From a virus, in IMG/VR virus record IMGVR_UViG_3300028883_000004, positions 64,001-95,880 of that record: a stretch of 31,880 bases of DNA, one strand, 5' to 3'. Positions 2,936 through 31,875 of this stretch are shown one piece after another. Numbering within the stretch: the first letter of the stretch is position 1; each line of letters starts with the position of its first letter. The position numbers were made by a program, and so were the translations under genes. The notes beneath the pieces are model-generated. The model worked only from the letters and a program-made list of their open reading frames with translations, did no database searches and was not told the origin of the DNA.

Positions 2936-3232
2936 ATGAATAACGAACAGGCCATAGCGGCCATGAGGCAATTCGCCGAAGCAGTGACTGAAGTATTCAA
3001 GGGACTGCGAAAGGTTCTCGCTCCACTCGCCAGAGAGATAAGGAGATTTGGAAGGCAACTCCTTGCTCTGGCCGCTGCTGATAAGGGAGGAAGGTTCGCT
3101 GCTGGAAAGTGGGGAGGGAACTGGGAGCCCTTCTTTAACGGGAAGGCAGTCGTCATTCGTAAGAGTCGCTTGAGGAGGAAACTGGAGAAGGTCCTTTGGC
3201 TTCATCTCCAGGGGAGGTTAGAGCTATCATGA
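2936..3232 (+). CDS. Small basic unknown protein, 98 aa
   Basis: I chose ATG 2936 because an AGAAGGAGGAA ribosome site lies just before it. An upstream in-frame ATG (2864) would run through the terminator hairpin. The protein is helical and rich in Arg, Lys and Ala (for example LREI-type amphipathic segments around residues 25-50), with a basic C-terminal part. I recognise no motif. It overlaps the deaminase gene by ATGA and could be co-expressed with it. Confidence 0.75.
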
Positions 3233-3702
3233 CGGAACGCAGACGAAAAATTGTTAGACCCAAATGGGATGCTTACTTCATTGGGTTCGCTTTCCAGGCT
3301 TCGAAACGCTCCGCCTGTCTATCACGAGCAGTCGGGGCAGTTCTTGTAAGAGAGAAGAACATCTTGGCGACTGGGTACAATGGACCTCCGAGCGGACTTC
3401 CTCATTGCTCGGAGGTTGGTTGCATAAGAGTTCAGCAGAATGTTCCGTCTGGGCAGAGGCACGAACTTTGCAGAGGGCTCCACGCTGAGCAGAATGCCAT
3501 CATCCAGGCGGCGAAACACGGGACCTCTATCAACGGAGCGGACCTTTACTGCACGACTTTTCCTTGCGTCATTTGTGCGAAGATGATAATCAACGCAGGC
3601 GTTAAGCGAATCTACTTCACAAAGTCTTACGACGACCCGCTCTCCAAGGAGATGTTAGAGCAAGCTGGAGTTCTGCTCTACGAGGTTCTAGCCAATGAGT
3701 AA
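3229..3702 (+). CDS. Deoxycytidylate (dCMP) deaminase
   Basis: This is a zinc-dependent deaminase of the dCMP/ComEB family that converts dCMP to dUMP, the substrate for thymidylate synthase. The zinc and catalytic signature is complete: HAE at residues 85-87 (His ligand, catalytic Glu) and PCVIC at 112-116 (two Cys ligands). The preceding loop has the family's GYNGPPSG segment and an extra HC...C pair. The length (157 aa) is typical. The start at 3229 (ATGA overlap, GGGGAGG upstream) is preferred to an in-frame ATG at 3196. It works logically with ThyX (6805), which would methylate the dUMP made here. Confidence 0.95.
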
Positions 3703-4177
3703 ATTCATCAACACTGACAAACTCTTTCCCTACCCTCCGGACTTTGCAGCACGACCAAACGACTTCGAATACAGAGAGAAGGTCTCCTACGAAAGAATGA
3801 AGAAGTGCGCCGCCTATCTCAAGTCGAAGGGGTTCAAAGTCATAAAGGACCTCTCCTGCGTAAGAGTAGGAGACTGGATCGTGCTCTGCTTCGAGTACGA
3901 AGGAGAGAGAGGCTTCATCTCTGCATCAGGTCGAGTCAACAGAGTAATGGACGGGCACATCATATACGATTCTGGAGAGTCGTCCTACGGCGGCATAAAT
4001 CAAGAGAAGGACATCGACATCAATCCTCACCATCGCCTCTGGTGGAAGTCTAACATCCGCAAGAGACGGGTGGCTAAGAAGCAAGGCGAACCGAAGAAGG
4101 TCGTAAGGAGACGAGTGGTGAAGAAAACAGAAGATCAACCGAAGAAGGTTGTCAGAAGGAGGGTCGTGAAGAAATGA
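3695..4177 (+). CDS. Unknown protein with duplicated basic tail, 160 aa
   Basis: This gene overlaps the deaminase by 8 bases and the epimerase by 4. The first 125 residues look globular (beta-like segments such as [25 protein letters not shown]), reminiscent of small barrel domains. The last 35 residues are almost purely basic and hold the unit [12 protein letters not shown] twice, separated by four residues (TEDQ). Such tails usually bind nucleic acid electrostatically. I do not recognise the globular part. The small terminase candidate at 25221 begins with a related KKKRRVVKKETKK stretch. Confidence 0.8.
4091..4174 (+). repeat. In-frame tandem repeat coding the basic tail
   Basis: Two 36-base copies (4091-4126 and 4139-4174) each encode [12 protein letters not shown], with a period of 48 bases. 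They differ at several third codon positions but give identical peptides, which suggests selection on the protein rather than a recent DNA duplication. Confidence 0.8.
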
Positions 4178-5160
4178 GCTTCAAAAACGAACTAAAGGTG
4201 AGGCAAGCCTGCGTTACTGGAGGCGGTGGATTCATAGGAAGGGCTCTGACGAAGGCCCTTCTCGAAAAGGGGATCAGGGTCAGCGTCCTCGACGACTTCT
4301 CGACCGGGAACCTCAGAAAGACAAACGACCTCCAGGGAGAAGGAGACCTCGACATCGTGGAAGGCTCTGTCTTGGTAGAAGGCGACATCGTAAAGGCGAT
4401 AAGCGGATGCGATACGGTTTATCATCTTGCGGCTATTCCTTCCGTGCCTCTCTGTGAAATCTCTCAGGCTCAGTCCTTTATCGTAAATGTGGAAGGGACA
4501 CGAAAGATCATCGAGGCCTGCGAGGTTATGGCTCCAAGACGGGTCGTCTTTGTCTCCACTTGTGCTTTGTACAAGGACAGAGCGAACGACGAAGAGCCGG
4601 CAATGGAATCGGAGTGGATCGACCCTGCTCAGCAGTTCCACTACCCGATGCATAAATACATCGCTGAGGTCCTTGCTCTTTCTGCCCATCTCAGAGGGAA
4701 CGTCTCGTGCTCTATCGTTCGACCCTTCAACGTCGTGGGGAGAGGACAGCGAGACGGAGGAGCTTACAGCGCGGTCGTCCCTGCCTTCCTGCGGATGGTC
4801 GAGGGAGGCATTCCGCCTACGATAAACGGAGACGGAGGCCAGAGCAGAGACTTCGTCCCTCTCCCTCTGGTTGCAGAAGGTATCCTTCGAGCAGGAACGG
4901 TGGAGGAGGCAGGAGGGACAATCATCAATATGGCTACGGCCGTGGAGACCACCATCAACGGTCTCTTCGAGATGATCCTTCGGATCAGCGGAATGAACTT
5001 GACTCCCTCCTACGACGACGGCAGACCTGGAGAGATGCGAGCGATGTACGGGAGTACATATCGAATGAGGGAGATTCTGGGACTGGACGAGGAGCTGGAG
5101 ACCTACACCCTGCAAAAGGAGCTTGAGGGCATCCTGGAGGACATCCAGCAGGGATGGTAG
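4174..5160 (+). CDS. NAD-dependent sugar epimerase/dehydratase
   Basis: This is an extended short-chain dehydrogenase of the nucleotide-sugar epimerase family (UDP-glucose 4-epimerase-like). Visible are the NAD loop GxxGxxG (G16, G19, G22), the HLAA segment, NVEGT, the VSTCALY strand with Ser128/Thr129, and the catalytic YxxxK pair (Tyr157, Lys161). The RPFNVVGRGQ and NGDGGQSRDFV segments are typical of the substrate-binding half. The length of 328 residues is normal. Members of this family interconvert nucleotide sugars; the exact substrate cannot be read from sequence. It starts inside the stop of the basic-tail protein. Its role could be to supply a sugar for host surface or virion glycan change. 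Confidence 0.92.
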   Translation: MSFKNELKVRQACVTGGGGFIGRALTKALLEKGIRVSVLDDFSTGNLRKTNDLQGEGDLDIVEGSVLVEGDIVKAISGCDTVYHLAAIPSVPLCEISQAQSFIVNVEGTRKIIEACEVMAPRRVVFVSTCALYKDRANDEEPAMESEWIDPAQQFHYPMHKYIAEVLALSAHLRGNVSCSIVRPFNVVGRGQRDGGAYSAVVPAFLRMVEGGIPPTINGDGGQSRDFVPLPLVAEGILRAGTVEEAGGTIINMATAVETTINGLFEMILRISGMNLTPSYDDGRPGEMRAMYGSTYRMREILGLDEELETYTLQKELEGILEDIQQGW

Positions 5161-6464: not shown

Positions 6465-6808
6465 TGCAGGAATGCGAAGTATGCGCGGCAATTATTAGAA
6501 TTGCAAACAGGTTCTCTCTTTCTGAACGAGAAGCAGAGGAGTTTGCTCGTAAGTTAATGGAGATCGGAAAACCAATTGAGGAGGTAGACTCAAGGAAGGA
6601 GCTTGAGGAGCTTCTGTATCAGTTGGAGAAGGAGCGAGTTCGGTTTCTTTCGGAGGATAAAGTGTACTCCGATGCAGAGGAGAGGAAAGAGAACAGACGA
6701 ACTTTGAGACAAAGGAAGCGGGTGCCAGAAAACCTGCATACGGATCCAAACAACCATTCTAGGATCAATCGAAGGATGATGCCTGGAAGGAGAGGAACGC
6801 GATCATGA
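6464..6808 (+). CDS. Unknown helical protein with N-terminal CxxC, 114 aa
   Basis: I chose ATG 6464 because it overlaps the upstream stop by one base; longer in-frame starts would overlap the membrane protein by most of its length. The N-terminus is MQECEVC, giving one CxxC. The middle is a long charged helix (about residues 20-75) and the tail is very basic (RRTLRQRKR, later RRMMPGRRG). It overlaps thyX by 4 bases. A nucleic-acid-binding role is possible from charge. Confidence 0.7.
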   Translation: MQECEVCAAIIRIANRFSLSEREAEEFARKLMEIGKPIEEVDSRKELEELLYQLEKERVRFLSEDKVYSDAEERKENRRTLRQRKRVPENLHTDPNNHSRINRRMMPGRRGTRS

Positions 6809-7521
6809 AGATACTTGTAAGGGAACCTGGTTTCGAGCTTATGACTCCGAAGGAGCATATTGCAGACTTCCCTGGGCTCATCGAGCTCGCCGGGAGGAAC
6901 TGTTACAAGTCGGAGGAGAAGATGACTCCAGAGTCCGCCTCCGCTTTCGTCAGAAGGATAATCAGGAGCGGTCATCACTCAGTTCTGGAGCACTGCGTCA
7001 TTATGGTCCGGATCATCTGTGACCGTGCATGCTCTCATCAACTCGTAAGGCATCGCCTTGCCGCTTACTCCCAGGAGAGTCAGCGTTACTGCAATTACGG
7101 AAGGGTCGATGCTCTTCAGATCATCTGTCCGCCGTCGATAGCTGAGGCGGAAGGCGTAGAGCAGGGACTCTACGAGGTGGAGTTTACCCAGAACAAAAAC
7201 TGGTGGCAGGTGAAAGAGGGGCCGACGTTCTTCGACGTAAAGCCGAGTATGTGGTTCAACTCAATCTGCGAGGCTTACGCGGCATACTCCAATCTTGTAG
7301 CGGCGAAGATCAAGGCAGAGGACGCAAGGACGGTTCTCCCGAATGCAACCAAGACGGAGGTGGTCTCCACTTTCAATCTACGGATGTGGAGGCACATATT
7401 CGAGGAGAGGGCTCACAATCCTCACGCCCAGTGGCAGATCAGGGGCATTATGCTCGACATCTTCCATCTGTTCTGTGAACTTCTCCCCGACTTCTTTGAA
7501 GACATGAAGGTGAAGAAATGA
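6805..7521 (+). CDS. thyX: Flavin-dependent thymidylate synthase ThyX
   Basis: ThyX makes dTMP from dUMP using methylene-tetrahydrofolate, FAD and NADPH. The hallmark RHRx7S motif is intact at residues 82-92 (RHRLAAYSQES), and the flanking segments SVLEHCVIMVRIICDRACSHQLVRHR and SQRYCNYG match the family closely. The C-terminal ARTVLPNATKTEVVSTFNLRMWRHIFEERAHNPHAQWQIR is the usual conserved substrate- and flavin-binding half. The length of 238 residues is typical. With the dCMP deaminase at 3229 it gives the phage its own dCMP to dTMP route. Confidence 0.97.
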   Translation: MKILVREPGFELMTPKEHIADFPGLIELAGRNCYKSEEKMTPESASAFVRRIIRSGHHSVLEHCVIMVRIICDRACSHQLVRHRLAAYSQESQRYCNYGRVDALQIICPPSIAEAEGVEQGLYEVEFTQNKNWWQVKEGPTFFDVKPSMWFNSICEAYAAYSNLVAAKIKAEDARTVLPNATKTEVVSTFNLRMWRHIFEERAHNPHAQWQIRGIMLDIFHLFCELLPDFFEDMKVKK

Positions 7522-12875: not shown

Positions 12876-13519
12876 TGGACGAGCCATGGATCAAGATCAG
12901 CTTCTATGACTCAAGAGGACAGAAGGACGACAGTGGGGAGCTTTACGATAAGCTCCTCACCGATCGTTTTCTTTTGAAGGTCCCTCGGGTTGGGGAGTAC
13001 ATCTGGTTTCCATCGAAGGTGGAAGGGCATACCGCCTGGGTCGTAGACGAGATCGCTCACTGGGTAGGATATGAGACATCGAGAACTCATCGCGCGGCAG
13101 CCTTCTGCACACCCGTAAAGGAGTCAAAGGAAATGAGAGAAGGGCGAATGACATTGTCCGTAGGAGTAGGCGTCGTCTATGCTCTCGGGTACACCATGTA
13201 CAAGAAGGTCTCGGAGGCCACCTGGGAGGAAGTCAAACCGGAGCGGTACGAGAAGGTGCTTGAGGAGATAGCAGAGGACGTCAGAGAGGTCCTTCGAGTT
13301 CTCAAGAGGAGAAGGGACATCGTCGACTTCGAGGTGACTGCGGACCTGGGAGAGAATCGAATGCACCTAACCAAGTTCAAGGAAGTGGTGCTCATGATAA
13401 AGACAAAGTCGAGCCCTTCAGACATAGAGCACACGAAGCTCCTTCTCTCCGTAGATAGGGAAGGCAAGAACCTCTACAGCAGACACATTACAGTCAACCC
13501 GCTTTCGGCTATGGACTAG
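12875..13519 (+). CDS. Unknown protein, 214 aa
   Basis: The start is ATG 12875 on the final base of the upstream stop, with no strong ribosome site, so translation is probably by coupling. The protein is soluble with a beta-like first third and a long charged helix about residues 108-150 (EEVKPERYEKVLEEIAEDVREVLRVLKRRRD). I recognise no motif. Confidence 0.75.
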   Translation: MDEPWIKISFYDSRGQKDDSGELYDKLLTDRFLLKVPRVGEYIWFPSKVEGHTAWVVDEIAHWVGYETSRTHRAAAFCTPVKESKEMREGRMTLSVGVGVVYALGYTMYKKVSEATWEEVKPERYEKVLEEIAEDVREVLRVLKRRRDIVDFEVTADLGENRMHLTKFKEVVLMIKTKSSPSDIEHTKLLLSVDREGKNLYSRHITVNPLSAMD

Positions 13520-13547: not shown

Positions 13548-13775
13548 ATGCAGGCAACCGTAGTCATAACGTATAGGGACATCCAGGACGATAAGGTCCG
13601 CAAGGTCTCCTACGCCTTCAAGGCTGTGGCTTCCGAGGGAGAGGCAATCGCTCTCTCCGTAAAGAGGTTCGAGAAGCTACACCATGTGCGTAGGGCGATC
13701 CTGTCTGCAGAGGTGATCCTGATAGAGGACACCATGGGCTTCGACCCAGACCCCAACGGAATCGAAGGAAGGTAA
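13548..13775 (+). CDS. Unknown small protein, 75 aa
   Basis: A GGAGGAGAGG ribosome site precedes ATG 13548. The sequence alternates hydrophobic strands and helices in a ferredoxin-like order (ATVVITYRDI...EAIALSVKRFEKL...RAILSAEVILIED), but the length is too short to decide. The family is unknown. It is part of the last plus-strand unit before the non-coding block. Confidence 0.7.
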   Translation: MQATVVITYRDIQDDKVRKVSYAFKAVASEGEAIALSVKRFEKLHHVRRAILSAEVILIEDTMGFDPDPNGIEGR

Positions 13776-13780
13776 AGACA

Positions 13781-13981
13781 ATGGACCACAACGGATTCGA
13801 GGCAGAGAGGAACAGGAAGCGAGACGAGAAGGTCCAGAGGACAATAGACAACTGCGCTCAAGACCTCTCGGAGATAACCAACCTGGAGCCCGACGACTGG
13901 CGTTCGATACTCTACAAGCTCGTCGACCCGTCCTGGGACGCCACAAGGTTCCACGCCCTGTTCAACCTCGTCAGACATTAG
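13781..13981 (+). CDS. Unknown small helical protein, 66 aa
   Basis: A GAAGGAAGG site lies before ATG 13781. The product is a charged, helical, soluble peptide with no motif. Its stop is followed 9 bases later by a 15-bp perfect hairpin, so it is the last gene of the left plus-strand block. Confidence 0.7.
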   Translation: MDHNGFEAERNRKRDEKVQRTIDNCAQDLSEITNLEPDDWRSILYKLVDPSWDATRFHALFNLVRH

Positions 13982-13989
13982 CCTCCCCA

Positions 13990-14056
13990 ACGAGGGAGAG
14001 GAGCGACCCACTCCGCGATGTTCCAAGGGTCAAAGGCTCCTCTCCCTCGTCTTTTA
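13990..14056 (+). terminator. Long perfect hairpin at end of left gene block
   Basis: The arms ACGAGGGAGAGGAGC (13990-14004) and GCTCCTCTCCCTCGT (14036-14050) pair over 15 bases without a mismatch, with a 31-base loop. CTTTTAAT follows directly. It fits a terminator with a long loop, or the first stem of a structured RNA. Confidence 0.65.
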
Positions 14057-14400
14057 ATCATCCCAGACAGCTTACCCTTTCCTGACAGGGAGGTGCATCC
14101 ACTCCCTGGGGAGGAACCACCACACCTCTAACGACTAACGAATCATGAGCATTTGCATGAGCTTTCAGAACTAGCTAAAAGGACACCCCAGCGAAAAGCG
14201 GACCAGAGACTATATAGGCGACAAGGCAAATAGGGCGGATAGGGGTACAAGTTCCCCACGGCCTCGCTGGCGCTCGTCCTCTCGCCGAGAAAACTCGTCG
14301 TGAGCCTCGCGCCTTCCTCGTCTATTCGTACCTAGAAGCTCCTCGCCTCCTACGCCCTAACGCCTTTATTGCCTAGGGGAAAGGTCTATTGCGTAGATAT

Positions 14401-14648
14401 AAACGCCCTACGGGCCGTATAGGGCGCGAGAGCAGGACTCCTAGAGCGGATCCAGGGAGAGGTTGAGGAACCATTGAGACATCGAGGAACCATTGAGACA
14501 ATGAATCGTAGGGTATCGTAGACGATTGTAGGGTACTGTCGGCAACTGTCGGGGAGTGTCGAGGTACTGTCGAGCCTGTCGTCCTTCTCGTAACGAATGA
14601 ACCAGAGGAGAAGGGAAGGCGCATGAAAGCCTAGAGAATAGGGCGTTT
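14401..14648. repeat. 10-bp inverted repeat bracketing the first iteron cluster
   Basis: AAACGCCCTA (14401-14410) and its exact reverse complement TAGGGCGTTT (14639-14648) enclose the first iteron pair and the 10-bp repeats. The left arm is also part of a local hairpin (14404-14426). Confidence 0.5.
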
Positions 14649-14774
14649 GCTTCATGTAAGGGTTGTAGGGTACTGTCTCCGACTGCGGGGTGATGTGAGG
14701 TACTGTGGAGCGAACGTGGGCGATCGTCCTTCCTCGTTAAAGCATTGAGACAATGTAGGAGCACTGAGACAATG
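14465..14774 (+). repeat. Iteron-like repeats (core CATTGAGACAATG), two pairs
   Basis: Pair one: GAGGAACCATTGAGACA at 14465-14481 and 14484-14500, identical over 17 bases and offset by 19. Pair two: CATTGAGACAATG at 14743-14755 and CACTGAGACAATG at 14762-14774, again offset by 19. The fullest core also occurs at 14491-14503. ATTG-AGA-CAAT is itself an inverted repeat, suited to a dimeric protein. Same spacing in both pairs argues for a real binding array. Confidence 0.7.
14531..14580 (+). repeat. Degenerate 10-bp tandem repeats ending in TGTC
   Basis: The segment reads as GGGTACTGTC, GGCAACTGTC, GGGGAGTGTC, GAGGTACTGTC and GAGCCTGTC in a row, a period of about one DNA helical turn. TGTAGGGTACTGTC recurs at 14664-14677, and GAGGTACTGT at 14561 and again near 14697. 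The phase with the helix suggests a protein binding on one face. Confidence 0.6.
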
Positions 14775-14943
14775 ATTCTCTCGTAGGGAGAGGGGATCGT
14801 ATGCAGGGAGACCTCCTCGACGAGAAGGAGGGAGAGGGAGAGGAGCCCAGGCCTCCTGTCCCAGAGAGGGTCCAGCTCTCCGCTCCCTGGGGAGGATACA
14901 CGATGTCCTCCTCTCCTTCCTCGTTAGAATACCCTAGAGAATC

Positions 14944-14960
14944 CCTAGAACGGCCGTAGG
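14944..14960 (+). repeat. Dispersed motif CCTAGAACGGCCGTAGG, copy 2
   Basis: This is an exact 17-bp copy inside the non-coding block, here extended to CCC...GGG on both sides. See also 11190, 22454 and 24658. Confidence 0.7.
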
Positions 14961-15127
14961 GCGGCAAACTCCCTCTCCCTCTAATCCTAACCCTCCCAAG
15001 GCAATAGAGCCCTCCTACGGCCCGTAGAGCTAAACGGATCCGCCAGAGGGAGCCTAGAGAAACATTCGAGGAGACAGGCGAGGCTAGAAGAACAAGGGGA
15101 GGGAGGGGAGACAGCGCGAGAGCAGGC

Positions 15128-15152
15128 GGGTCTGAAGGGGAGGGGGGAGGGG
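15128..15152 (+). other. Canonical G-quadruplex motif
   Basis: Four G tracts (15128-15130, 15137-15140, 15142-15147, 15149-15152) are separated by loops of 6, 1 and 1 bases, within the usual rule for a three-layer quadruplex. A further three-tract cluster lies at 15096-15108. Confidence 0.55.
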
Positions 15153-15196
15153 TTGTCTGATAGTGGCGAAAGGGCGGCGAAACACGAAGGACTGGA

Positions 15197-15214
15197 TGCG
15201 CTCCTACCAGCGCA
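15197..15214 (+). terminator. Short hairpin followed by TTTT
   Basis: TGCGCT (15197-15202) pairs with AGCGCA (15209-15214) around a 6-base loop, and CAATTTT follows. A second stem (15233-15240 with 15256-15263, one G-U pair) lies just downstream. It could be a weak terminator or part of a folded leader of the gene at 15350. Confidence 0.4.
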
Positions 15215-15349
15215 CAATTTTGTCAGAAAAGCGGCCATACGTCCTTGTCGTCTTTGTGTGGCCTGAAAGGACCTCGTAAGCAGGCACCGCCCTACACATG
15301 ATCTTTTTATCTAGGCAGAGAACATCGAACCAAAGGAGAAAGAGGAAAC

Positions 15350-15676
15350 ATGGAAAGAGCGGAAAAGAGGATAATGTCGATCGAATCCAACAATGGCCGT
15401 TCCTGGTGGGACTTCCTCATGCCCTGGAGGAAATCGCAAAGGGACGTGCACACTCTGCTGGAGAACGTCTTCAACGTCCAGAGAAGGGTAGACGAGTTGG
15501 AGCGTCTGGAGAGTATGGCTGCCGCTCAGAGCGTAAAGGACTCGAAGCGAATCGAGGACCTGGAGAGAACCGTCAAGAAGCAGGCCACTCGTATCGGGGA
15601 ACTTCGACAGAAAATCAAGGAGACCAATCGAGTCGCCCTTCAGGCAAAGAACGGAAAGGAATTGCAGTATGGATGA
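15350..15676 (+). CDS. Coiled-coil protein, 108 aa
   Basis: AAAGGAGAAAGAGGAAAC precedes ATG 15350. After a Trp-rich segment (WWDFLMPWRK, about 19-28) the chain is a long heptad-like helix (about 38-98: VQRRVDELERLESM...RIEDLERTVKKQATRIGELRQKI), so an oligomeric coiled coil is likely. The Trp-rich patch could touch a membrane or partner. No family is recognised. It is the first gene after the non-coding block. Confidence 0.8.
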   Translation: MERAEKRIMSIESNNGRSWWDFLMPWRKSQRDVHTLLENVFNVQRRVDELERLESMAAAQSVKDSKRIEDLERTVKKQATRIGELRQKIKETNRVALQAKNGKELQYG

Positions 15677-16942: not shown

Positions 16943-17228
16943 GAAAATGAGGGAAATGAAAACCGCCGGGAAACTATCTGGACTCTTTGACGACGAAGTG
17001 AAGGTCCTTTCCTGGTGGGTTGTCGCTGGAGTCGTTTCCAAAGACGGGTTCAACAGTAACAACACTCGAACTCGAAAGTTCGTAGAGGAGTGCTGTGAAC
17101 TTCATGGAGTCAAATGGACCACTATCAGAAATCTAGTTTACAAAAAGCACCTGTTCGAGACTGGAGACAATTTTACAGTTACGGATCCAGCTTTGGCATT
17201 AGCGTGTTATGACAAAAGGATAGGATGA
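16932..17228 (+). CDS. Unknown small protein, 98 aa
   Basis: ATG 16932 follows an AGGAG site within the end of the previous gene. The start MTSKKMREMKTAG is basic. The rest is helical with a possible helix-turn-helix (RKFVEECCELHGVKWTTIRNLVYKKHLF, about 47-74). A regulatory role is possible but unproven. It overlaps the next start (ATGATG). Confidence 0.65.
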   Translation: MTSKKMREMKTAGKLSGLFDDEVKVLSWWVVAGVVSKDGFNSNNTRTRKFVEECCELHGVKWTTIRNLVYKKHLFETGDNFTVTDPALALACYDKRIG

Positions 17229-17833
17229 TGAGCATGCTATTTCAAAATCAAGTGAGCATACCTATCGGAAAGAAGGGCGATGTTCAGATCCGCTACATGC
17301 GAGTGACCGGTCGACAGTCGAGGATGTCTTCGATGAGAGGTACATGGTGTCCTCCAGGCATCTATCGTCTCCTGGTGATAGGCGGACACACTATCATGAG
17401 TAATACACCAGACGAGTTATCCTCCTCGATGGCGCCTGTTCTGGAGGGAAGGGGCGACGTGCTGATCTTCGGCCTTGGTCTCGGGTGCATACTTCCAGAC
17501 CTTCTTGCGAAGGAGGAAGTCAACTCCGTTCTGGTGGTGGAGAAGAACAGGAATGTCATCGACCTCGTCTCTCCCTCCTTCTCGGATCCAAAGTTGACTA
17601 TCGTGGAGGGAGACGCCTTCGTCTGGAAACCAGAGAAGGGTCGAAAGTTCTCTACGATCTTTTTTGACATCTGGGGAGATTATCACACTGACCTCCTTCC
17701 GGAGATGGGGAGACTCCTTCGACGGTGTGTACCGTGGAAGAAGAAGGGCGACTGCTGGGCCGGCTGCTGGAGGCGGGAGGAGCTTCTTGACATCCGTAGG
17801 AGGGAGAGGGCGGCGAACCTACCTTGGGCCTGA
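17225..17833 (+). CDS. Rossmann methyltransferase / spermidine-synthase-like protein, 202 aa
   Basis: A class I SAM-binding fold is visible: VLIFGLGLGC (79-88, glycine loop), VLVVEKN with acidic Glu106 at the end of strand two, TIVEGDAF (125-132) and STIFFDIWGDY (143-153). This layout, especially VEKN followed by EGDAF and a DxWxD segment, is close to polyamine synthase-type proteins. Such genes occur in phages and their substrates are usually unknown. The C-terminus is short and basic. The start may equally be ATG 17228. It ends the plus-strand block before an AT-rich spacer. Confidence 0.7.
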   Translation: MMSMLFQNQVSIPIGKKGDVQIRYMRVTGRQSRMSSMRGTWCPPGIYRLLVIGGHTIMSNTPDELSSSMAPVLEGRGDVLIFGLGLGCILPDLLAKEEVNSVLVVEKNRNVIDLVSPSFSDPKLTIVEGDAFVWKPEKGRKFSTIFFDIWGDYHTDLLPEMGRLLRRCVPWKKKGDCWAGCWRREELLDIRRRERAANLPWA

Positions 17834-24140: not shown

Positions 24141-24791
24141 TTACTGTAGGGAACCATCGTCGCTCTGCACCTTTCCAGCATTTCTTTCCCAGTTCCACTT
24201 GTAATGAGGAGAGGCTACATCACCTAGTCGTTTTCTGTATCTCCTCAAACGCTTCATAACGACTGTCGTGTAGTTCTTATTGCAATGACCATTGTAGTCC
24301 TGAAGGTCCATCTCATGAAGCAAAAGAACCTCTGTCCCTATCTTTACGTTCGTCCACGGGTCAGTCAGACTTTCTCTTGGAATGTTCCAGCGTCTTGCAT
24401 GCATACCTATCACCTGCATCGCTCCACATCCAAAAGGTCCGCATCCAACGTCCTTCCATCTACTCTCTGTCCAGATGACTGCGGAAACTAAAAGCGGATC
24501 GAGGTCCCTTCCCCAAGACCACTCACATACAGCTCGAAGAAGTCTCTCCTGATACTCTCCAGAAGGCGGTGCAACCGATTTGCGGAGATCGGCTACACAT
24601 ACTTGCATTCCAACTTCCTTCTCTGGTGGAAGGGAGAAGAAAAGCGTTGTCTCGCTTCCTAGAACGGCCGTAGGAGCACGATCGTAATGCTTCCTTTGTC
24701 CTATCCCTTCTGAGGCGAGTGTGGCTATTAGAACGGCATAGACGAGAAGGCCGAAGAGTCTGGCTAGAACGGGAGGTCCGTCAGTTGGCAT
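24141..24791 (-). CDS. Membrane-anchored lytic transglycosylase (SLT family), 216 aa
   Basis: A single N-terminal hydrophobic segment (about 8-27) acts as anchor or uncleaved signal. The SLT domain follows from about residue 80: LLVSAVIWTESRW contains the catalytic Glu109 and Ser110, and CGAMQVIGMHA (122-132) is the second signature. LTDPWTNVKIGTEVLL is the third conserved segment. Two Cys (117, 122) flank a GPFG turn. These enzymes cut peptidoglycan with anhydro-sugar formation, and in phages act in DNA entry or lysis. It overlaps the gene before it by 11 bases. A copy of the dispersed motif lies inside it (24658). Confidence 0.87.
   Translation of the reverse strand: MPTDGPPVLARLFGLLVYAVLIATLASEGIGQRKHYDRAPTAVLGSETTLFFSLPPEKEVGMQVCVADLRKSVAPPSGEYQERLLRAVCEWSWGRDLDPLLVSAVIWTESRWKDVGCGPFGCGAMQVIGMHARRWNIPRESLTDPWTNVKIGTEVLLLHEMDLQDYNGHCNKNYTTVVMKRLRRYRKRLGDVASPHYKWNWERNAGKVQSDDGSLQ
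24658..24674 (+). repeat. Dispersed motif CCTAGAACGGCCGTAGG, copy 4, inside a gene
   Basis: This is an exact 17-bp copy in the coding part of the transglycosylase (minus strand), at residues about 40-45 (APTAVLG) just after the membrane anchor. Being kept inside a coding region suggests a role in DNA rather than in transcript ends only. Confidence 0.7.
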
Positions 24792-25098
24792 TTTGCATCC
24801 TGACTAGAGCCTTTACGAAGTCGTCGTTTCTGGCTCCATTGATTGTTGGAATCATAACGAACATTCCATTGAATGGCGGATCGGTTACGAACTTAACCTC
24901 CCATTTGAATTTGCTAGAGACTCGTTCTGACACACCACAATCATTAAATACTTTTGCAGTGGCTTCTGATAACTCTGACTGAAGATAGACTTCAGCGTCG
25001 TCTACTTTCTTGCCTTCCAAGTTCTTTCCTACAAACTTGGCTCCGACTTCTTCGATTGCCATTCTAAGTGCTATGGCTAACTTCGTCTTGTCGATCAT
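24781..25098 (-). CDS. Unknown protein, 105 aa
   Basis: A strong GGAGGAAGGAGG site precedes its ATG, and it is the first gene of the minus-strand cassette. Soluble, with a helical first half (KLAIALRMAIEEVGAKFVG...) and beta-like second half (KFKWEVKFVTDPPFNGMFVMIPT). No motif is recognised. The next gene starts within its end. Confidence 0.75.
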   Translation of the reverse strand: MIDKTKLAIALRMAIEEVGAKFVGKNLEGKKVDDAEVYLQSELSEATAKVFNDCGVSERVSSKFKWEVKFVTDPPFNGMFVMIPTINGARNDDFVKALVRMQNAN

Positions 25099-25220
25099 TG
25101 TGCCTCCTTCCTCCTAGAACAAAAGATCATAAAGCAAATCGGGTCCCATAAAAATGTCCTGGCAAGGTGCAATGTGCACTCCGTAGACTTTCTCCAAATG
25201 CATCTGAGGAGATAGTGCGC
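25099..25220. promoter_or_regulatory. Divergent intergenic region
   Basis: This 122-base gap separates the start of the minus cassette from the start of the packaging genes, so promoters for both directions should lie here. I see AT-rich patches (near 25120-25155) and a TGCA-ATG-TGCA inverted pair (near 25170), but no clear -35/-10 pairs. Confidence 0.4.
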
Positions 25221-25940
25221 ATGACCGATAAGAAGAAACGGCGAGTGGTAAAGAAGGAGACAAAGAAGTCTCCTCCGAGTCGTGCAGACGATAGTTTAGA
25301 ACAGCGGGATCAGCGAAGATCAGAGGCGACCAGACGAAAGATTGCCGGTGTCGTTAGAGCATGCTGGTCAATGGAAATGTCTTTTGACGAGATAGCGGAT
25401 TCGGTATACGAAGGAACCGGTGAGACGCTATCCTCTGCAGACGTTGCTATGTACGTTGAGAGGGTTATGCGAGAGGCCACCGTTCAACTGGAGGCTCAGG
25501 ACGCTGGTGTAACTTACATCCGCTACACTCTTTCTCAGCTTACAGTTGCAAGACAACTCAATGACCTCATAAAAGACTTTTCAAACTCCAAGCAATACAA
25601 TGCCCTGGTGGGAGCCCTTCGAGCAAAGTCCGACATCATCGATCGCGTTCTAAAGGTCGGGCAGGATATGGGATTCGTCAGGAGAGTTCCTGAAGGTCAT
25701 TTTATTGTAAGTGGACAGGACCTTCGGGAGCTTACCCAGGACGAACTCGTGAAGCGGATAGCTTCGGAGAACGAAAGGATGGAAACGCTCACAAAGGAAC
25801 TTATGACGGAGACCGGTGTTTCGCCAAAGAAGGGCAGCTTGTACCTTCTTCATCCAAAGAAGGGAGATGGCGCCCCTCGTAAGGGAGCCTCTGCCTCTGC
25901 AGTTGAGATGGATCCGCTGAAGGAGGACGAAGGAACATGA
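25221..25940 (+). CDS. Putative terminase small subunit, 239 aa
   Basis: I start at ATG 25221 after GAGGAG; a longer frame from 25167 is unlikely. The gene overlaps the large terminase by ATGA. After a basic leader (KKKRRVVKKETKK), residues about 45-90 form a helix-turn-helix (IAGVVRACWSMEMSFDEIADSVYEGTGETLSSADVAMYVERVMRE), as in small subunits that recognise the packaging site. A central helical region would support oligomerisation. Position plus fold give the call; no specific family is recognised. Confidence 0.6.
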   Translation: MTDKKKRRVVKKETKKSPPSRADDSLEQRDQRRSEATRRKIAGVVRACWSMEMSFDEIADSVYEGTGETLSSADVAMYVERVMREATVQLEAQDAGVTYIRYTLSQLTVARQLNDLIKDFSNSKQYNALVGALRAKSDIIDRVLKVGQDMGFVRRVPEGHFIVSGQDLRELTQDELVKRIASENERMETLTKELMTETGVSPKKGSLYLLHPKKGDGAPRKGASASAVEMDPLKEDEGT

Positions 25941-27403
25941 TGCTCAGTGAAGCAGAACTCCTGAGGAGCAGCGGAAAGGTAAAGGCGATCGAGGAGGTTC
26001 GTGAGCGTCGGGAGATCAGCAATGAGATTCTGCGCAGGCTTATCATAGAGAATAAGCGCGTCGACCTTCTCGCAACTCTCCTCTGTGGTTATTATGCCTA
26101 TGATCCTCATCTTGCAATGATGGAGTGGAATGAACTCCATCCAGACTTCAACCTCATTTTGGCCTTCCGAGATTTGGGCAAGACGACCATCTCGACTATT
26201 AATGATGCGGCCTGGGAGATTGTAAACGATCCAAACGTTCGACTTCTGCTTGGATCCAAGACGGATACAAATGCAAGAGCCTTCCTCAGAGAGTTAAAAC
26301 GAAAACTCGTTAGACCTGACCTGGTGGAGGTATTTGGTCAGCAGTTTAACGCTGCAAAGTGGAACGAGTTTGAGATAGAAGTTATCGGAAAGACAATGGA
26401 CAATAAGGAGCCGACCGTACGAGCGCTTGGAGCAGAGAGCGCGGTCGCTTCTCAGCATTACGATGTTATCTACGGAGACGATATCGTTTCGGAGGACAAC
26501 TCCAGAACAGAGAATCAGAGAGATACACTCAAGCGTTTCTTCTATTCTATTTTAGATCCGTGTTTGGAGCCTCCTTTCTATCGCCCTGGCAGGCAGACTG
26601 GTTTTCGAGTAAGGGGTACACGATATCATCCCTACGACCTTTATCATCACATAATGGAAAACGATCAGAGGTTCGAGGGAAAGGTACGAATAATTCCAGC
26701 GACAGACATTAATGGTGTAAGCAATTTTCCAGAGAAGTTCTCAGACGAATACTTTAGAGAAAAACGAGCAGCGTTAGGCTCCTTGTTTTACTTCCCGCAA
26801 TACATGTTGGATACGGAAGTAATGAAGGGAGAGGTATTCGACTACAACTGGTTCAGGTGGGTAGATTCCGTTCCGGCAATCTCTCAGCTTTCTGTTTTTA
26901 CAGGAGTCGACCTCGCAATTTCACAAAAGAAGGGTTCGGACTCTTTTGCAATCGTTACAGTCGGCGTAGACAATCAACAGAACATTTACCTTCTTCACTA
27001 CTGGACTGGAATCATTCCGACTGGAAAACAGACAAAGGTCATCTGTAGGGTGGCCGATAGATTCCATCCAGTTAGGACTGGAATCGAGGCTACGCAATAT
27101 CAGGAGGCGAAGGCACAGGAACTCCGTATGAATCCGGATACAAAATATGTCAACGCTATTCCGGTATGGGTAAACAAAAACAAGGTTACAAGAGCAATGA
27201 ACGTCACTCCAATTCTGGAGGACGGTCGATTTCACTTTTACACCGGTATGGATACAGGGCGATTGGAAGAGCAGCTTGTAATGTTCCCAAAGAAACCTAG
27301 AGACCTCGTGGATGCATTGGTGATTGCTCTTAACCTTGCCACGAATAAGAACAGGAGAGGCGGGAAACGCCGTAAGCGCGAGAAGGAACCTGGTCTCATC
27401 TGA
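25937..27403 (+). CDS. terL: Terminase large subunit
   Basis: This is the motor-nuclease that pumps DNA into the head. The ATPase part shows a Walker A variant FRDLGKTT (77-84, with Lys82) and a Walker B YDVIYGDDIV with Asp181/Asp182. The C-terminal nuclease part shows GVDLAIS (Asp325) and RDLVDALVIAL (Asp456 and Asp459), the usual acidic set of an RNase H-like fold. The length of 488 residues is typical. It sits between the small subunit candidate and the portal, as expected. Confidence 0.93.
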   Translation: MMLSEAELLRSSGKVKAIEEVRERREISNEILRRLIIENKRVDLLATLLCGYYAYDPHLAMMEWNELHPDFNLILAFRDLGKTTISTINDAAWEIVNDPNVRLLLGSKTDTNARAFLRELKRKLVRPDLVEVFGQQFNAAKWNEFEIEVIGKTMDNKEPTVRALGAESAVASQHYDVIYGDDIVSEDNSRTENQRDTLKRFFYSILDPCLEPPFYRPGRQTGFRVRGTRYHPYDLYHHIMENDQRFEGKVRIIPATDINGVSNFPEKFSDEYFREKRAALGSLFYFPQYMLDTEVMKGEVFDYNWFRWVDSVPAISQLSVFTGVDLAISQKKGSDSFAIVTVGVDNQQNIYLLHYWTGIIPTGKQTKVICRVADRFHPVRTGIEATQYQEAKAQELRMNPDTKYVNAIPVWVNKNKVTRAMNVTPILEDGRFHFYTGMDTGRLEEQLVMFPKKPRDLVDALVIALNLATNKNRRGGKRRKREKEPGLI

Positions 27404-27417
27404 GGAGGAAAGAGAAG

Positions 27418-29145
27418 ATGGCTGACGAGAAGAAGATCACAGGAAATAAACTTGAAGCGACTCAGGTTGGAGAGACGCGAACTCCAGATGGTCGGAGACT
27501 TCGAGCCTATACGATCCAACCTGTCTTGAAGGAGAAAGGAACAGGAAACGACTCGGCGGATGCCGACAAAACAACTTCCCTTCCAGACCCTTTCAAGGAT
27601 CATTACGGAAGCGACAAACTCATCCCTCCGATTATTGATCCTGGTGAACTTGCAATACTTCCTGAATATTGCAGCGAACTGGGACCCTGTATTGAGACGA
27701 TGGAAATCAACGTCCCTGGGTTTGGGTATCGTATCGCAGAACGTAAGAAGATCATCGACACCCTCGAATCACTCTCCCCTGGAAAGAAGCTCCCAGAAGA
27801 AGCTCAGCGAGAGATCGCTCTGGAGAGACTTCGAATGCAGAACTGGTTTGATCAGGCAGGTGGGATCGAATCGTTTACGAAACTCAGAAGGAAGCTCAGA
27901 GTCGACCTAGAGACGATTGGATGGTGTCTCGCTGAGGTGGTTCCTAACGGAGATAGCCTTCCGTCCTATTTGAACCATGTTCCTGCATTTGAAGTTAGAC
28001 TTTCAAAAGTCGATGATGAACATACAGAGTACAAAGAATCGAGATTGGAAATCGGGGAAAACGGTCATCCAAAAATCACCGAGATTATCGCCTTCAAACG
28101 CTTCCGTAGATTCTGTCAGATTCGAAACAACGTTAAAGTCTGGTTCAAGGAAATGGGCGACCCTCGAACGATAGATCGAAAGACAGGAGAGATCATCGAC
28201 GAATCGAAACTTGAGAGCTGGAAGAAGGGCGGAGGAAAGGAGGCCCATCCGGCAATCTACAGGAAACTGTACTGCACTCGCTCTGCTTACGGTCTCCCGC
28301 GTTACAAAGGTTCGCTCCTTCAAATTTACGGTGTTAGAAGGGCGGATGAGGTAAACTACACGACCTTCACAAATAACAACATCCCATCGATGATGATCAT
28401 GGTTGAAAACGGAGGCCTCACGGATGGATCCATCGATCGCCTTACGGAGTTCGTCACAGATCAGGTGAAGGGCGATGCCAACTGGAGCAAGTTCCTCGTT
28501 GTAGAGGCTGAGCCTTACGAAAGTGATGCAACCGGACAACCTGAAGGAAAGGTCAAACTCAACCTGGAGAAGTTAGGGAACGTTCAACAGAAGGATGAAT
28601 TGTTCCAGGAGTTTGTAAAGAACTCACTCGACAGAATCAGGCGAAACTGGAGAATCACTCCAATTTACCTGGGAAGGACAGACGACTACACCAGGGCGAC
28701 CGCCGCAGAGGCAAGACGCCTTACGGACGAACAGGTGTTCCAACCTGAGAGAGAGGACGAGGACTTCGAAATCAATCAGCAACTCACTCTCCGACTTGGA
28801 TTCAAATGGCATGAGTTCAAAACGAGAACTCCTAACATCACAGACACAGAGTCTCTCGTGAAGCTACTCGGCGCGGCAGACAAATCTGGAGGCCTCACCC
28901 CTGAGATCAGCAGATCGATTTTGGAGATCATCACAGGACTCGACCTTGGAAACGTCTCCGACAAGATCGACGGAGACATCCCCTTCTGGCTTCAGATCGT
29001 AAGGGAGCAGATGCAGGGGAAAATCAACAAGTCAAAGGGCGGTGGAAGTGGAGCGGATATAGACCTCGTTGAAGCGATGGTAGATTTGAGAAGGAAGGTC
29101 GAGGACCGATACGCAGAACTTCAGCAGGATCACAACATAGAGTAG
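27418..29145 (+). CDS. Phage portal protein (PBSX-like)
   Basis: The portal is the dodecameric ring at one vertex through which DNA enters. The match rests on the typical central region: SAYGLPRYKGSLLQIYGVRRADEVNYTTFTNNNIPSMMIMVENG (about 290-335), DGSIDRLTEFV, and DRIRRNWRITPIYLGRTDDYTRATAAEA (about 405-432), all familiar from the PBSX-type portal family. The length is 575 residues, with a charged C-terminal helix. A GAGGAGGAAAG site precedes ATG 27418. Confidence 0.85.
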   Translation: MADEKKITGNKLEATQVGETRTPDGRRLRAYTIQPVLKEKGTGNDSADADKTTSLPDPFKDHYGSDKLIPPIIDPGELAILPEYCSELGPCIETMEINVPGFGYRIAERKKIIDTLESLSPGKKLPEEAQREIALERLRMQNWFDQAGGIESFTKLRRKLRVDLETIGWCLAEVVPNGDSLPSYLNHVPAFEVRLSKVDDEHTEYKESRLEIGENGHPKITEIIAFKRFRRFCQIRNNVKVWFKEMGDPRTIDRKTGEIIDESKLESWKKGGGKEAHPAIYRKLYCTRSAYGLPRYKGSLLQIYGVRRADEVNYTTFTNNNIPSMMIMVENGGLTDGSIDRLTEFVTDQVKGDANWSKFLVVEAEPYESDATGQPEGKVKLNLEKLGNVQQKDELFQEFVKNSLDRIRRNWRITPIYLGRTDDYTRATAAEARRLTDEQVFQPEREDEDFEINQQLTLRLGFKWHEFKTRTPNITDTESLVKLLGAADKSGGLTPEISRSILEIITGLDLGNVSDKIDGDIPFWLQIVREQMQGKINKSKGGGSGADIDLVEAMVDLRRKVEDRYAELQQDHNIE

Positions 29146-29154
29146 GAATACAAC

Positions 29155-31875
29155 GTGCCTGTTTTCAAATGCAGCAATGGGAAGTATCGCATCGGAAACG
29201 GTCCTTGTGTTTTCACCAGTAGGGAGAAAGCAGAGACCGCCATGCGAGCTTATTACGCAAGGGTTCAAAAGGGCATCGAGGATGAATTCGATACCTTCCT
29301 TGCTTTTGAGCTTCCTCTGCTGGAACTCACAGGAATTGCAAAGGCGAAGTCTGCCGCAATGGTTGAGGTGGAACTTTCTAACCTTCTGAAGAGTCGCTTC
29401 AATAACAAGGTGAAGGGTCTCGTAGAGAGAGGCAACGACTTCTTCGTAAAAAGAGGGAAAGGAAAAGTCACAAAAACAGATGTCAAAGCCTACATGGATA
29501 ACTTCGAAACGGAGATGGCTACACTATCTCCAAAACTCCAGCGGCAGGTTCTAAGAGGAGTCAGGACGCTCTATGGATTAGGAGCGGCAAACGCCTCCTC
29601 GAAATTCGGTCTTGGATACTCACTGAGCCTGATGGATGAAGCAGCTATAAACTGGGCTGCAAAGGATAACCTGTACTGGGTTGGAAACTTCTACAGCAAG
29701 AACCTATCGAAACAATTGAGAGGGATAACAACTCAGCTCGCTCTGAAGGAGGGACTAGGAAGGAACGAGGCAGGACCTGTCCTGGGGAGAGCGATCAACA
29801 AGTTCATAAATGAAGGCCCAAAGGAGTTTACAGGATTCCGCATTCCGAAAGGATGGATCGGGACTCCAGATCAATATTGGTCGGCGCTTGCCGGACATAT
29901 CAGGGGTCTCTCCACAACTTGGGGCTCCCTCTCGTCTTTCCAGCAGGTTGGTATTTTGTACTTCACGATCATAGCCACTGGAGACGAAAGGATGTGCCCG
30001 GTTTGTGGTCTCCTCGATGGGCAAGTCTATCCGGTGAACTATGCAGTGCAACTTCGCGATCAAATGATGCAGGCTGAATCTCCAGAGGCGGTGAAGTCTC
30101 TTAACCCGTGGATGAAGGCGGGAGAGATAGAGGACATCGTGGGTCGGTCTGAGTTCCAGGGAACAAAGTTGAATGCTGATGAGGTTCGGAAGCTAATCGA
30201 CAGTGGCGTTGTCTTTCCTCCCTTCCACTTCAGATGCAGATGCGACTTCGAGGCCTCCGATCAGTCTGAGGTTCAGGAGGTCTACGGGAAGGGCGGAAAG
30301 GGAAAGAGCGGAGGCGGCGGAGGAGCGGCGAAACCCAAGTCAAAGGGGTCTCCCAAGGAGAAGGCTCCGAAATCGCCTCCTACGGTGCCTCTCGTAGCTA
30401 ATGCAGCCCGTTTGAAGTCCAGTCTCCCTCCTGGAAACTTCTCTGTCACTTCTTCGACTCTTTCTCAGCAGGAACTGGGGACATTTTCTTCACAGGTTGC
30501 TGGAATGTCGGATGATGCGGCAGAGGCCTTCCTAAACGCAAAAGTCAGTGAGATATTTGAAGGCGGTGTCGTCCTAGACGGAAAGCACTCTGTGAGTATG
30601 ATCAGAATGATCGAAGATGCTCCCTTGTCTATGGCTCGTGTAGATATGCTGAAAGCTGCTGCAGATAACGAGTTGAAGGCGTTCAGTACGACATTGCAAA
30701 CTCGAACTCGAAATCTAGGTCAGAAGGCTCTTGCTCGATTGAATCCTGCTACTGCCGATGAATACGCAGAATATAGGAAACTTCGAGCTGCATTCAATTC
30801 TGAGGTTAGTGCTACGCGGCAAAGGTTATGGCATGGAAGAAGATACATGGCATACGCCGAGGACCTTAGATGCGATACAACTTATTTACTGGAGAAAAGC
30901 GGACAGGGAAAGACACTTAAATGGAAAGCAAAATACACAAAAGGAAAGTTCTACAAACAAACAACTCTTTACGGAGATGCGGCAGAACGACTTGATTGGT
31001 TTGTAGCCAGAGAGAAAGCTGCAATGTGGATGCAGCAAAACATGGAGCTTGTTGATGGGGCTCCTCTCTCTAAACTTATTCAATATGCCGCTAGAGACGG
31101 AGTCATCCCAACTCAGGTTGCTCAGGATGCTCTTGCAATAGAGGTAATGAATTATCGCTATGCAATGCACTACTCTTATGACGACCTTCAGATGTTTAAC
31201 AACTTTGCAAGAGGTGGGAAATGGAACAATCCAAACTTCAAAAAGAAAGTAGCATGGCGGAATAGAGGAACGGTTGCAAGACCCTCTACAATATCCCAGT
31301 GGATGGAGAGAGTAGACGATGGTATGTACAAGATGCCAGTTCATGCTAGAGCCTACACACCACAATGGGTAGGGTTATCAGACATGGGCGAATTCTCAAC
31401 CGCCTCAGCCTGGTCAAAGAATGCAAATTATCGTTCGTTTGCTTACAACCCAAAAGATGCAGGACCAGGAACGCGTTATCTTTCGACTAAACGATTTGAA
31501 TATGAGATAACCGGCTACAACCCGTACAAAGAAATCGCCATTATGGATCAGGGTGCAGCAGTCCATGAATACTTCCACAACCTTGAGGGGTCTCTATTCC
31601 AGCAAGAGGTTAGGTTAAACGCAAACAGGTTTAGATGGTTACATGGTGACGGAAAGAGCGTTGGCAAACAGTTCCTTCATAGTCATCAGAGAAAGAACCT
31701 CCATCAACCTAACCTGTCAGAGGAGTTTGCCATCTCGTCAGAGAAGTTCACAGGGGTTGGAAACTACTACGGACTCAAGAAGCAATCTTACGATATTTTC
31801 GTGCAGAGCATGAAGGCCTCCTCTGGAGGTATCGAAGATGCAGCCAAACTCGGTTCTCACAAGTTAGGCAACTGA
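29155..31875 (+). CDS. MuF/gp7-type minor head protein with HExxH C-terminal extension, 906 aa
   Basis: The start is GTG 29155, preceded by AGTAGGAAT. Residues 1-40 form a Cys-containing module (CSNGKYRIGNGPCVFTS). The minor head (MuF/SPP1 gp7-like) domain runs to about 370 with its signature CPVC (281-284), GQVYP, and PPFHFRCRC with His358, Cys361 and Cys363. A Gly/Lys/Pro linker follows (about 377-410). Then come about 500 residues not needed for a MuF protein, with HEYFHN at 804-809 (HExxH). Temperate-phage MuF proteins are known to carry toxin domains at their C-terminus. The next gene begins on the final base of its stop (31875). Confidence 0.8.
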   Translation: MPVFKCSNGKYRIGNGPCVFTSREKAETAMRAYYARVQKGIEDEFDTFLAFELPLLELTGIAKAKSAAMVEVELSNLLKSRFNNKVKGLVERGNDFFVKRGKGKVTKTDVKAYMDNFETEMATLSPKLQRQVLRGVRTLYGLGAANASSKFGLGYSLSLMDEAAINWAAKDNLYWVGNFYSKNLSKQLRGITTQLALKEGLGRNEAGPVLGRAINKFINEGPKEFTGFRIPKGWIGTPDQYWSALAGHIRGLSTTWGSLSSFQQVGILYFTIIATGDERMCPVCGLLDGQVYPVNYAVQLRDQMMQAESPEAVKSLNPWMKAGEIEDIVGRSEFQGTKLNADEVRKLIDSGVVFPPFHFRCRCDFEASDQSEVQEVYGKGGKGKSGGGGGAAKPKSKGSPKEKAPKSPPTVPLVANAARLKSSLPPGNFSVTSSTLSQQELGTFSSQVAGMSDDAAEAFLNAKVSEIFEGGVVLDGKHSVSMIRMIEDAPLSMARVDMLKAAADNELKAFSTTLQTRTRNLGQKALARLNPATADEYAEYRKLRAAFNSEVSATRQRLWHGRRYMAYAEDLRCDTTYLLEKSGQGKTLKWKAKYTKGKFYKQTTLYGDAAERLDWFVAREKAAMWMQQNMELVDGAPLSKLIQYAARDGVIPTQVAQDALAIEVMNYRYAMHYSYDDLQMFNNFARGGKWNNPNFKKKVAWRNRGTVARPSTISQWMERVDDGMYKMPVHARAYTPQWVGLSDMGEFSTASAWSKNANYRSFAYNPKDAGPGTRYLSTKRFEYEITGYNPYKEIAIMDQGAAVHEYFHNLEGSLFQQEVRLNANRFRWLHGDGKSVGKQFLHSHQRKNLHQPNLSEEFAISSEKFTGVGNYYGLKKQSYDIFVQSMKASSGGIEDAAKLGSHKLGN

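Follow-up and report, generated by a model that had tools for sequence, protein, structure and literature searches.

What does a tailed phage keep in 1368 bp that hold no gene? The question is raised by a block at positions 13982-15349 of the window, the whole 31,880-nucleotide stretch analysed here, which corresponds to positions 64001-95880 of the 95,880-bp virus record IMGVR_UViG_3300028883_000004. A preliminary description made from the window had called this block the only long gap of the genome and had read it as either a replication origin or a large structured RNA. The analysis presented here favours the origin, which is unproven, and disfavours the large ornate RNA; the block is a plausible phage origin in an undescribed phage lineage.

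The gene-free block and its genome

Under a coding model that was trained on this genome, the block is the longest gap of the entire record, in agreement with the preliminary description. The next-longest gaps measure 862 bp and 469 bp, and the former looks by eye like an unrecognised gene fragment. Of the ORFs lying wholly within the block, the best reaches a coding-model score of 9.2, the calling threshold being 10. The block and its neighbours are as follows.

13781-13981, + strand: upstream ORF, 66 aa
13982-15349, unstranded: non-coding block, proposed replication origin region; largest gap of the genome, no ORF above the coding threshold
15350-15676, + strand: downstream ORF, 108 aa, of coiled-coil-like composition, with a purine-rich ribosome-binding-like sequence just 5'

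Read from the left, the block holds a terminator-like hairpin, a C-rich tract, a skew switch near 14375, the first pair of dyads and the first cluster of iterons. After these come a spacer, the second iteron cluster, the second dyad pair, further duplications of short words and, ending before 15350, a G-rich tract.

The large subunit of terminase (25937-27403) is encoded at the right end of the window, together with portal-like and minor head proteins. These terminase, portal and head genes (window 25937-31875) close the record, which opens with a head protease-like gene followed by the gene for the major capsid protein (genome 509-3615). Given this arrangement, the record probably represents a circularly permuted genome that is almost whole, notwithstanding its classification as being without end repeats. 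Replication genes found in the genome encode a family B polymerase (PolB), DnaB, a DnaG-like primase, helicases and a UvsX-like recombinase, and further products include SbcCD, a RuvC-like resolvase and a DnaC-like loader. The families searched gave no integrase, no ParB and no known replication initiator in the genome, and no initiator gene was recognised near the block.

Single-protein searches with the terminase, portal and polymerase returned no close relative. A search with the capsid protein returned one relative at 56% and, via alignments, a large family of phages, uncultured and about 90-114 kb in size, in which the nearest relative by major capsid protein has about 57% identity and the terminases are 32-42% identical to that of this phage. 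A 101-kb contig with a capsid protein 57% identical, L099 (PNAM01000087.1), also came up; it is assigned to a Myxococcales MAG, which offers a lead to the host unless the contig is phage DNA that was mis-binned. The comparison set consists of 17 large records, this genome and sixteen others, brought to one layout and one gene-calling method; gene calls from shorter fetched fragments were left out as unreliable, the training sequence being too small.

Repeats and motifs confined to the block

Repeated 8-mers number 149 in the block compared with 24±7 in dinucleotide shuffles, an excess of about sixfold that none of 200 shuffles reaches. Inverted 8-mers are also in excess (88 versus 25±7), which is partly expected since the left side of the block is C-rich and the right side is G-rich. 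Two periods emerge, one of 19 bp (31 of 40 matches from about 14446) and one of 10 bp (at lag 10, 28 of 40 positions match from about 14503); the best score at any lag in 100 shuffles is 24 in both cases. The features are listed below.

14102-14113, unstranded: CTCCCTGGGGAG, an exact copy of which is repeated at 14883-14894
14404-14424, + strand: bracketing inverted repeat, left arm
14469-14507, + strand: dyad pair 1, a pair of CATTGAGACAATG-like sites with 19-bp spacing; promoter-like TTGAGA-17-GACAAT (14474-14502)
14506-14595, + strand: iteron cluster 1, a 10-bp unit repeated imperfectly about eight times, with the rough consensus (T/C)(T/C)GT(A/C)GGG(T/A)A
14663-14738, + strand: iteron cluster 2, a partial duplicate of cluster 1
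14740-14778, + strand: dyad pair 2, with equal 19-bp spacing; promoter-like TTGAGA-17-GACAAT (14745-14773)
14943-14963, - strand: bracketing inverted repeat, right arm, 81% complementary to the left arm
15128-15152, + strand: G-quadruplex motif, the sole + strand match in the genome

The two repeat pairs with 19-base spacing, the helical-phase 10-bp repeats, the bracketing inverted repeat and the quadruplex motif had all been named in the preliminary description, and each was recovered. The CATTGAGACAATG-like copies lie at 14472/14491 and 14743/14762; two are exact, one has one mismatch and the fourth has two mismatches. No copy with one mismatch or fewer exists elsewhere in the genome, where the best matches have two. 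Part of cluster 1 is duplicated at 14663-14711 (84% identity over 51 columns, E 2.6e-5), the iteron TTGTAGGGTACTGTC has exactly two copies in the genome, both within the block, and CTCCCTGGGGAG has no exact genome copies other than the two listed. Searches for DNA homologs of the block in phages, plasmids and 47 family records gave only short chance matches.

Tandem, regularly spaced direct repeats characterise iteron origins, and the block has them. Two other marks of origins are missing from it. DnaA boxes (TTATNCACA) with one mismatch or fewer do not occur in the block, the nearest one-mismatch matches being at 13103 and 16823, and there is no AT-rich unwinding zone, the GC content being 55% overall and 0.45 in the lowest 100 bp.

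The chief rival to an origin, and one that may coexist with it, is a promoter/operator control region for the downstream operon of small, probably early, genes, in which the dyads would be regulator sites or tandem rightward promoters and the rest leader or spacer. The two promoter-like matches within the dyad pairs have identical 17-bp spacing and are built from the 19-bp repeats. Such matches, which are weak and were made by consensus only, number three in the region where 0.6 are expected. Their density is 2.2/kb in the block versus 0.74/kb genome-wide. The terminator-like hairpin at the left end and the same-direction genes on the right would also suit a control region. Against this, a promoter needs neither 1.37 kb nor phased arrays, the density of promoter-like matches is not raised in the corresponding blocks of the relatives G010 and G016, and the dyad is absent from the rest of the genome, which argues against a shared operator. 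We consider a control region as the explanation of the block rather unlikely.

Other candidates for the repeats were rejected. An operator shared across the genome is at odds with motifs confined to the block, and a parS centromere with a ParABS system is at odds with a ParB search of the genome that gave no match (controls were positive in 11 of 14). As for hairpin promoters of the N4 type, the dyad, with a 5-bp stem and a 3-base loop, is not exceptionally stable, and no protein of the size of a virion RNA polymerase was called, the largest called protein of the genome having 1125 aa. A tandem-pair pattern search also brought up L255. This unrelated phage contig of 37 kb carries TGAGACAA 18 times within a gap of about 0.5 kb (2307-2830) that is flanked by an AAA_25 helicase-like gene and RusA. 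The array probably represents the origin iterons of L255 itself, and the word that it has in common with the block may be chance. It was not used as support, since repeat arrays occur about four times per Mb of fetched viral DNA and a matching array somewhere in the collection is therefore expected by chance.

Strand polarity

A switch in strand composition divides the block at the following point.

14375, unstranded: GC-skew switch point, left -0.18, right +0.18

The change from C-rich to G-rich is significant in a Brownian-bridge test (p~2e-4), and it is the deepest negative-to-positive GC-skew switch of the genome when compared with all other 1000-bp windows. GC skew had been proposed as a check on the origin, and the outcome is divided: the inversion from negative to positive that is characteristic of origins is present locally, but third-codon skew along the genome has no sign change at the block and no chromosome-scale origin signature. 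The skew signal is therefore a local one.

Among 15 family blocks, a switch of the GC type with p<1e-3 is present in five (this genome, G016, G021, G025 and G030) and reversed only in G019, compared with 0.3% of control windows in each direction. When the change is measured from A+C to G+T (keto), seven of the 15 blocks have it and three (G019, G023 and G035) have the reverse, compared with 0.9% of control windows each way; by the keto measure the block of this genome reaches only p 0.03. In other family blocks the skew switch is absent.

Folding and the possibility of a large RNA

Several hairpins had been reported for the block, of which one proved exceptional.

13990-14050, + strand: terminator-like hairpin, z -5.6; perfectly paired stem of 15 bp, then TTTT

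Being very stable and followed by TTTT, this hairpin is most readily taken as the terminator of the gene or operon upstream. Short hairpins as a class are not enriched in the block (8 versus 4.5±2.4; 25 of 200 shuffles have as many).

A large, structured RNA without coding function, whether GOLLD/ROOL-like or of a new ornate type, would be in keeping with a length above 800 nt, a location in a phage and several long-range complementary segments. The folding results do not follow suit. The z score of the whole block is -1.4 and weakens to -0.38 without the first 75 bases, which hold the terminator. Local 100-nt windows of the block have a mean z of -0.08, random genome windows a mean of -0.59, and the terminator is the sole + strand outlier among the local windows. 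Elsewhere in the family, the G016 block folds worse than its shuffles (positive z), and that of G010 folds better than its shuffles, in step with its AT palindromes. Rfam gave no match for the block at the gathering score and only chance matches at a relaxed E-value, nor did it give a match in the corresponding stretches of seven relatives. The GOLLD and ROOL covariance models likewise did not match the block. The block resembles these RNAs in being a long non-coding phage segment, and differs from them in having no covariance-model match, no excess folding stability and no tRNA neighbourhood. GOLLD and ROOL are often found near tRNA islands, an association that is frequent and not defining (PMC12286853); no tRNAs were found in the window or in the whole genome. 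Sequence is not conserved between family members, not even between the gaps of the related genomes G018 and G019, which cannot be aligned. The folding and Rfam results speak against an ornate folded RNA, but not against a transcript over the block. We regard a large structured RNA as extremely unlikely, and one candidate is thereby removed from the list of giant phage RNAs.

Placement of the gap among relatives

Ten of the 17 large records, this genome included, have their longest gap 8-17 kb upstream of the terminase gene, and four more (G025, G029, G030 and G033) have it 19-25 kb upstream. In 14 of the 17 it is 9-25 kb upstream. The nominal binomial p for the placement in the 10 records is 4e-7, a value that overstates the case since the position window was chosen after the first cases had been seen. 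In G035 it is the second-longest gap that fits, and G007 and G009 have no such gap at the expected place. Direct repeats are clearly enriched in eight of the 10 family blocks tested. The alignment with related phages that had been suggested as a check yielded no alignable block sequence, as no family block could be aligned with another. The repeat sequences are not common to the relatives, but repeat-richness and position mostly are. G018 and G019 share 36 kb at 69% identity, and their gaps have homologous genes on both flanks and gap sequences that do not align; judged from these alignments, the position of the gap is retained and its sequence replaced. The G010 block (oriented 13610-14330), at a similar position, has a very different type of repeat, a TATTATATATAATA-like palindrome present about six times.

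It is possible that the block is the remnant of decayed genes or junk that accumulated in a variable region. The small-gene region around the block is indeed hypervariable, and few neighbouring genes have homologs in the relatives. The exact spacing of the repeats, the confinement of motifs to the block, the recurrence of large gaps at a similar position in a compact family and the failure of any ORF within the block to pass the coding-model threshold nevertheless make decay very unlikely.

Alternatively, the block could be a pac site, where packaging initiates, or a genome-end region recognised by terminase. The repeats and the absence of genes would fit, as would the ends of the record, which resemble a cut made in a circularly permuted genome, with terminase at the end and capsid at the start. 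In addition, a probable small terminase gene adjoins the block, about 10 kb from the large subunit gene, in G018 (24829-25503) and G019 (65753-66427, both oriented), the block lying just upstream of it. In this genome and most other relatives, the probable small terminase gene is instead beside the large one and about 10 kb from the block, and pac sites are as a rule short and close to terS. A packaging site is accordingly judged very improbable, slightly more so than decay.

The block as a probable replication origin

On balance, we consider it somewhat probable that the block is the replication origin of this phage, or one of its origins, of a fast-evolving iteron type, a function that we infer from sequence. 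This reading is favoured because the iteron-like repeats are confined to the block, the skew switches locally, the replisome includes a helicase loader, and the placement and repeat-richness of the gap are similar across the family. Several observations count against an origin. The block has no DnaA box, no AT-rich zone and no recognised initiator, skew does not change genome-wide, the switch is reversed in three relatives (G019, G023 and G035) and absent in others, and two (G007 and G009) lack the gap.

In the proposed mechanism, a putative phage initiator, probably dimeric, would bind the phased 10-bp iterons and the paired dyads, and the duplex would open within or beside the array. The phage DnaC-like loader would place DnaB at the opened site, where primase and PolB would start synthesis, probably outward in both directions. 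Such bidirectional synthesis would leave a switch from C-rich to G-rich sequence in the block. In a sub-variant of this mechanism, the dyads would act as rightward promoters and opening at the same site would be primed by transcription through an R-loop.

Iteron origins that work with an initiator, a loader and DnaB occur in phage lambda (O/P) and SPP1 (gp38/39/40). The block shares with these the tandem spaced repeats, the phage DnaC-like loader and the DnaB helicase, and differs in that its array is not inside an initiator gene, its initiator was not recognised and it has no obvious AT-rich unwinding element. R-loop origins, such as those of T4 and the cluster A mycobacteriophages, have promoter-like sites followed by G-skewed sequence in a short non-coding region and diverge between relatives. 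The block has promoter-like matches and positive GC skew downstream of them, a likeness to T4 that is one of sequence and does not demonstrate a T4-type system. Origin sequences diverge strongly between related mycobacteriophages, and the RNA-based prophage origins of cluster A are extrachromosomal maintenance elements located beside parABS (PMC7157519), a neighbourhood that is absent here, where ParB had no match. The PLE satellite of the Vibrio cholerae phage ICP1 has a proven origin in a repeat-bearing 2.7-kb non-coding region, in which the RepA_N initiator RepA binds one type of repeat (PMC7145576). The block is similar in being a large non-coding gap with several types of repeat, one of which consists of semi-palindromic direct repeats (iterons). 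It differs in that PLE has RepA nearby and its region lies between divergent operons, whereas the block has no recognised initiator and genes that run in one direction.

For the family as a whole, it is conceivable though doubtful that these uncultured phages of about 90-114 kb keep the place and general architecture of their origin (a long gene-free tract, phased degenerate repeats and often a switch from A+C-rich to G+T-rich sequence) while its sequence is fully turned over between species. Such turnover with a kept architecture would imply a fast co-evolving candidate initiator that binds the origin. If the origin reading is right, an origin can be predicted for a large lineage of uncultured phages, and origins can be proposed in relatives by a simple rule, namely the longest gap about 9-25 kb upstream of terminase together with repeats and a polarity switch. 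It would also imply that an initiator gene is missing from those recognised.

Other genes of the window and genome

The window also encodes a dCMP deaminase (3196-3702), a nucleotide-sugar epimerase (4174-5160), ThyX (6805-7521) and a methyltransferase (17225-17833), and a transglycosylase-like gene lies in its right part, probably at 24141-24791 on the minus strand. Among the replication genes at 31-61 kb of the genome, ThyX (Thy1) is matched a second time, more weakly, and the uracil-DNA-glycosylase family is matched twice. The presence of two ThyX-like genes in a single phage is unusual.
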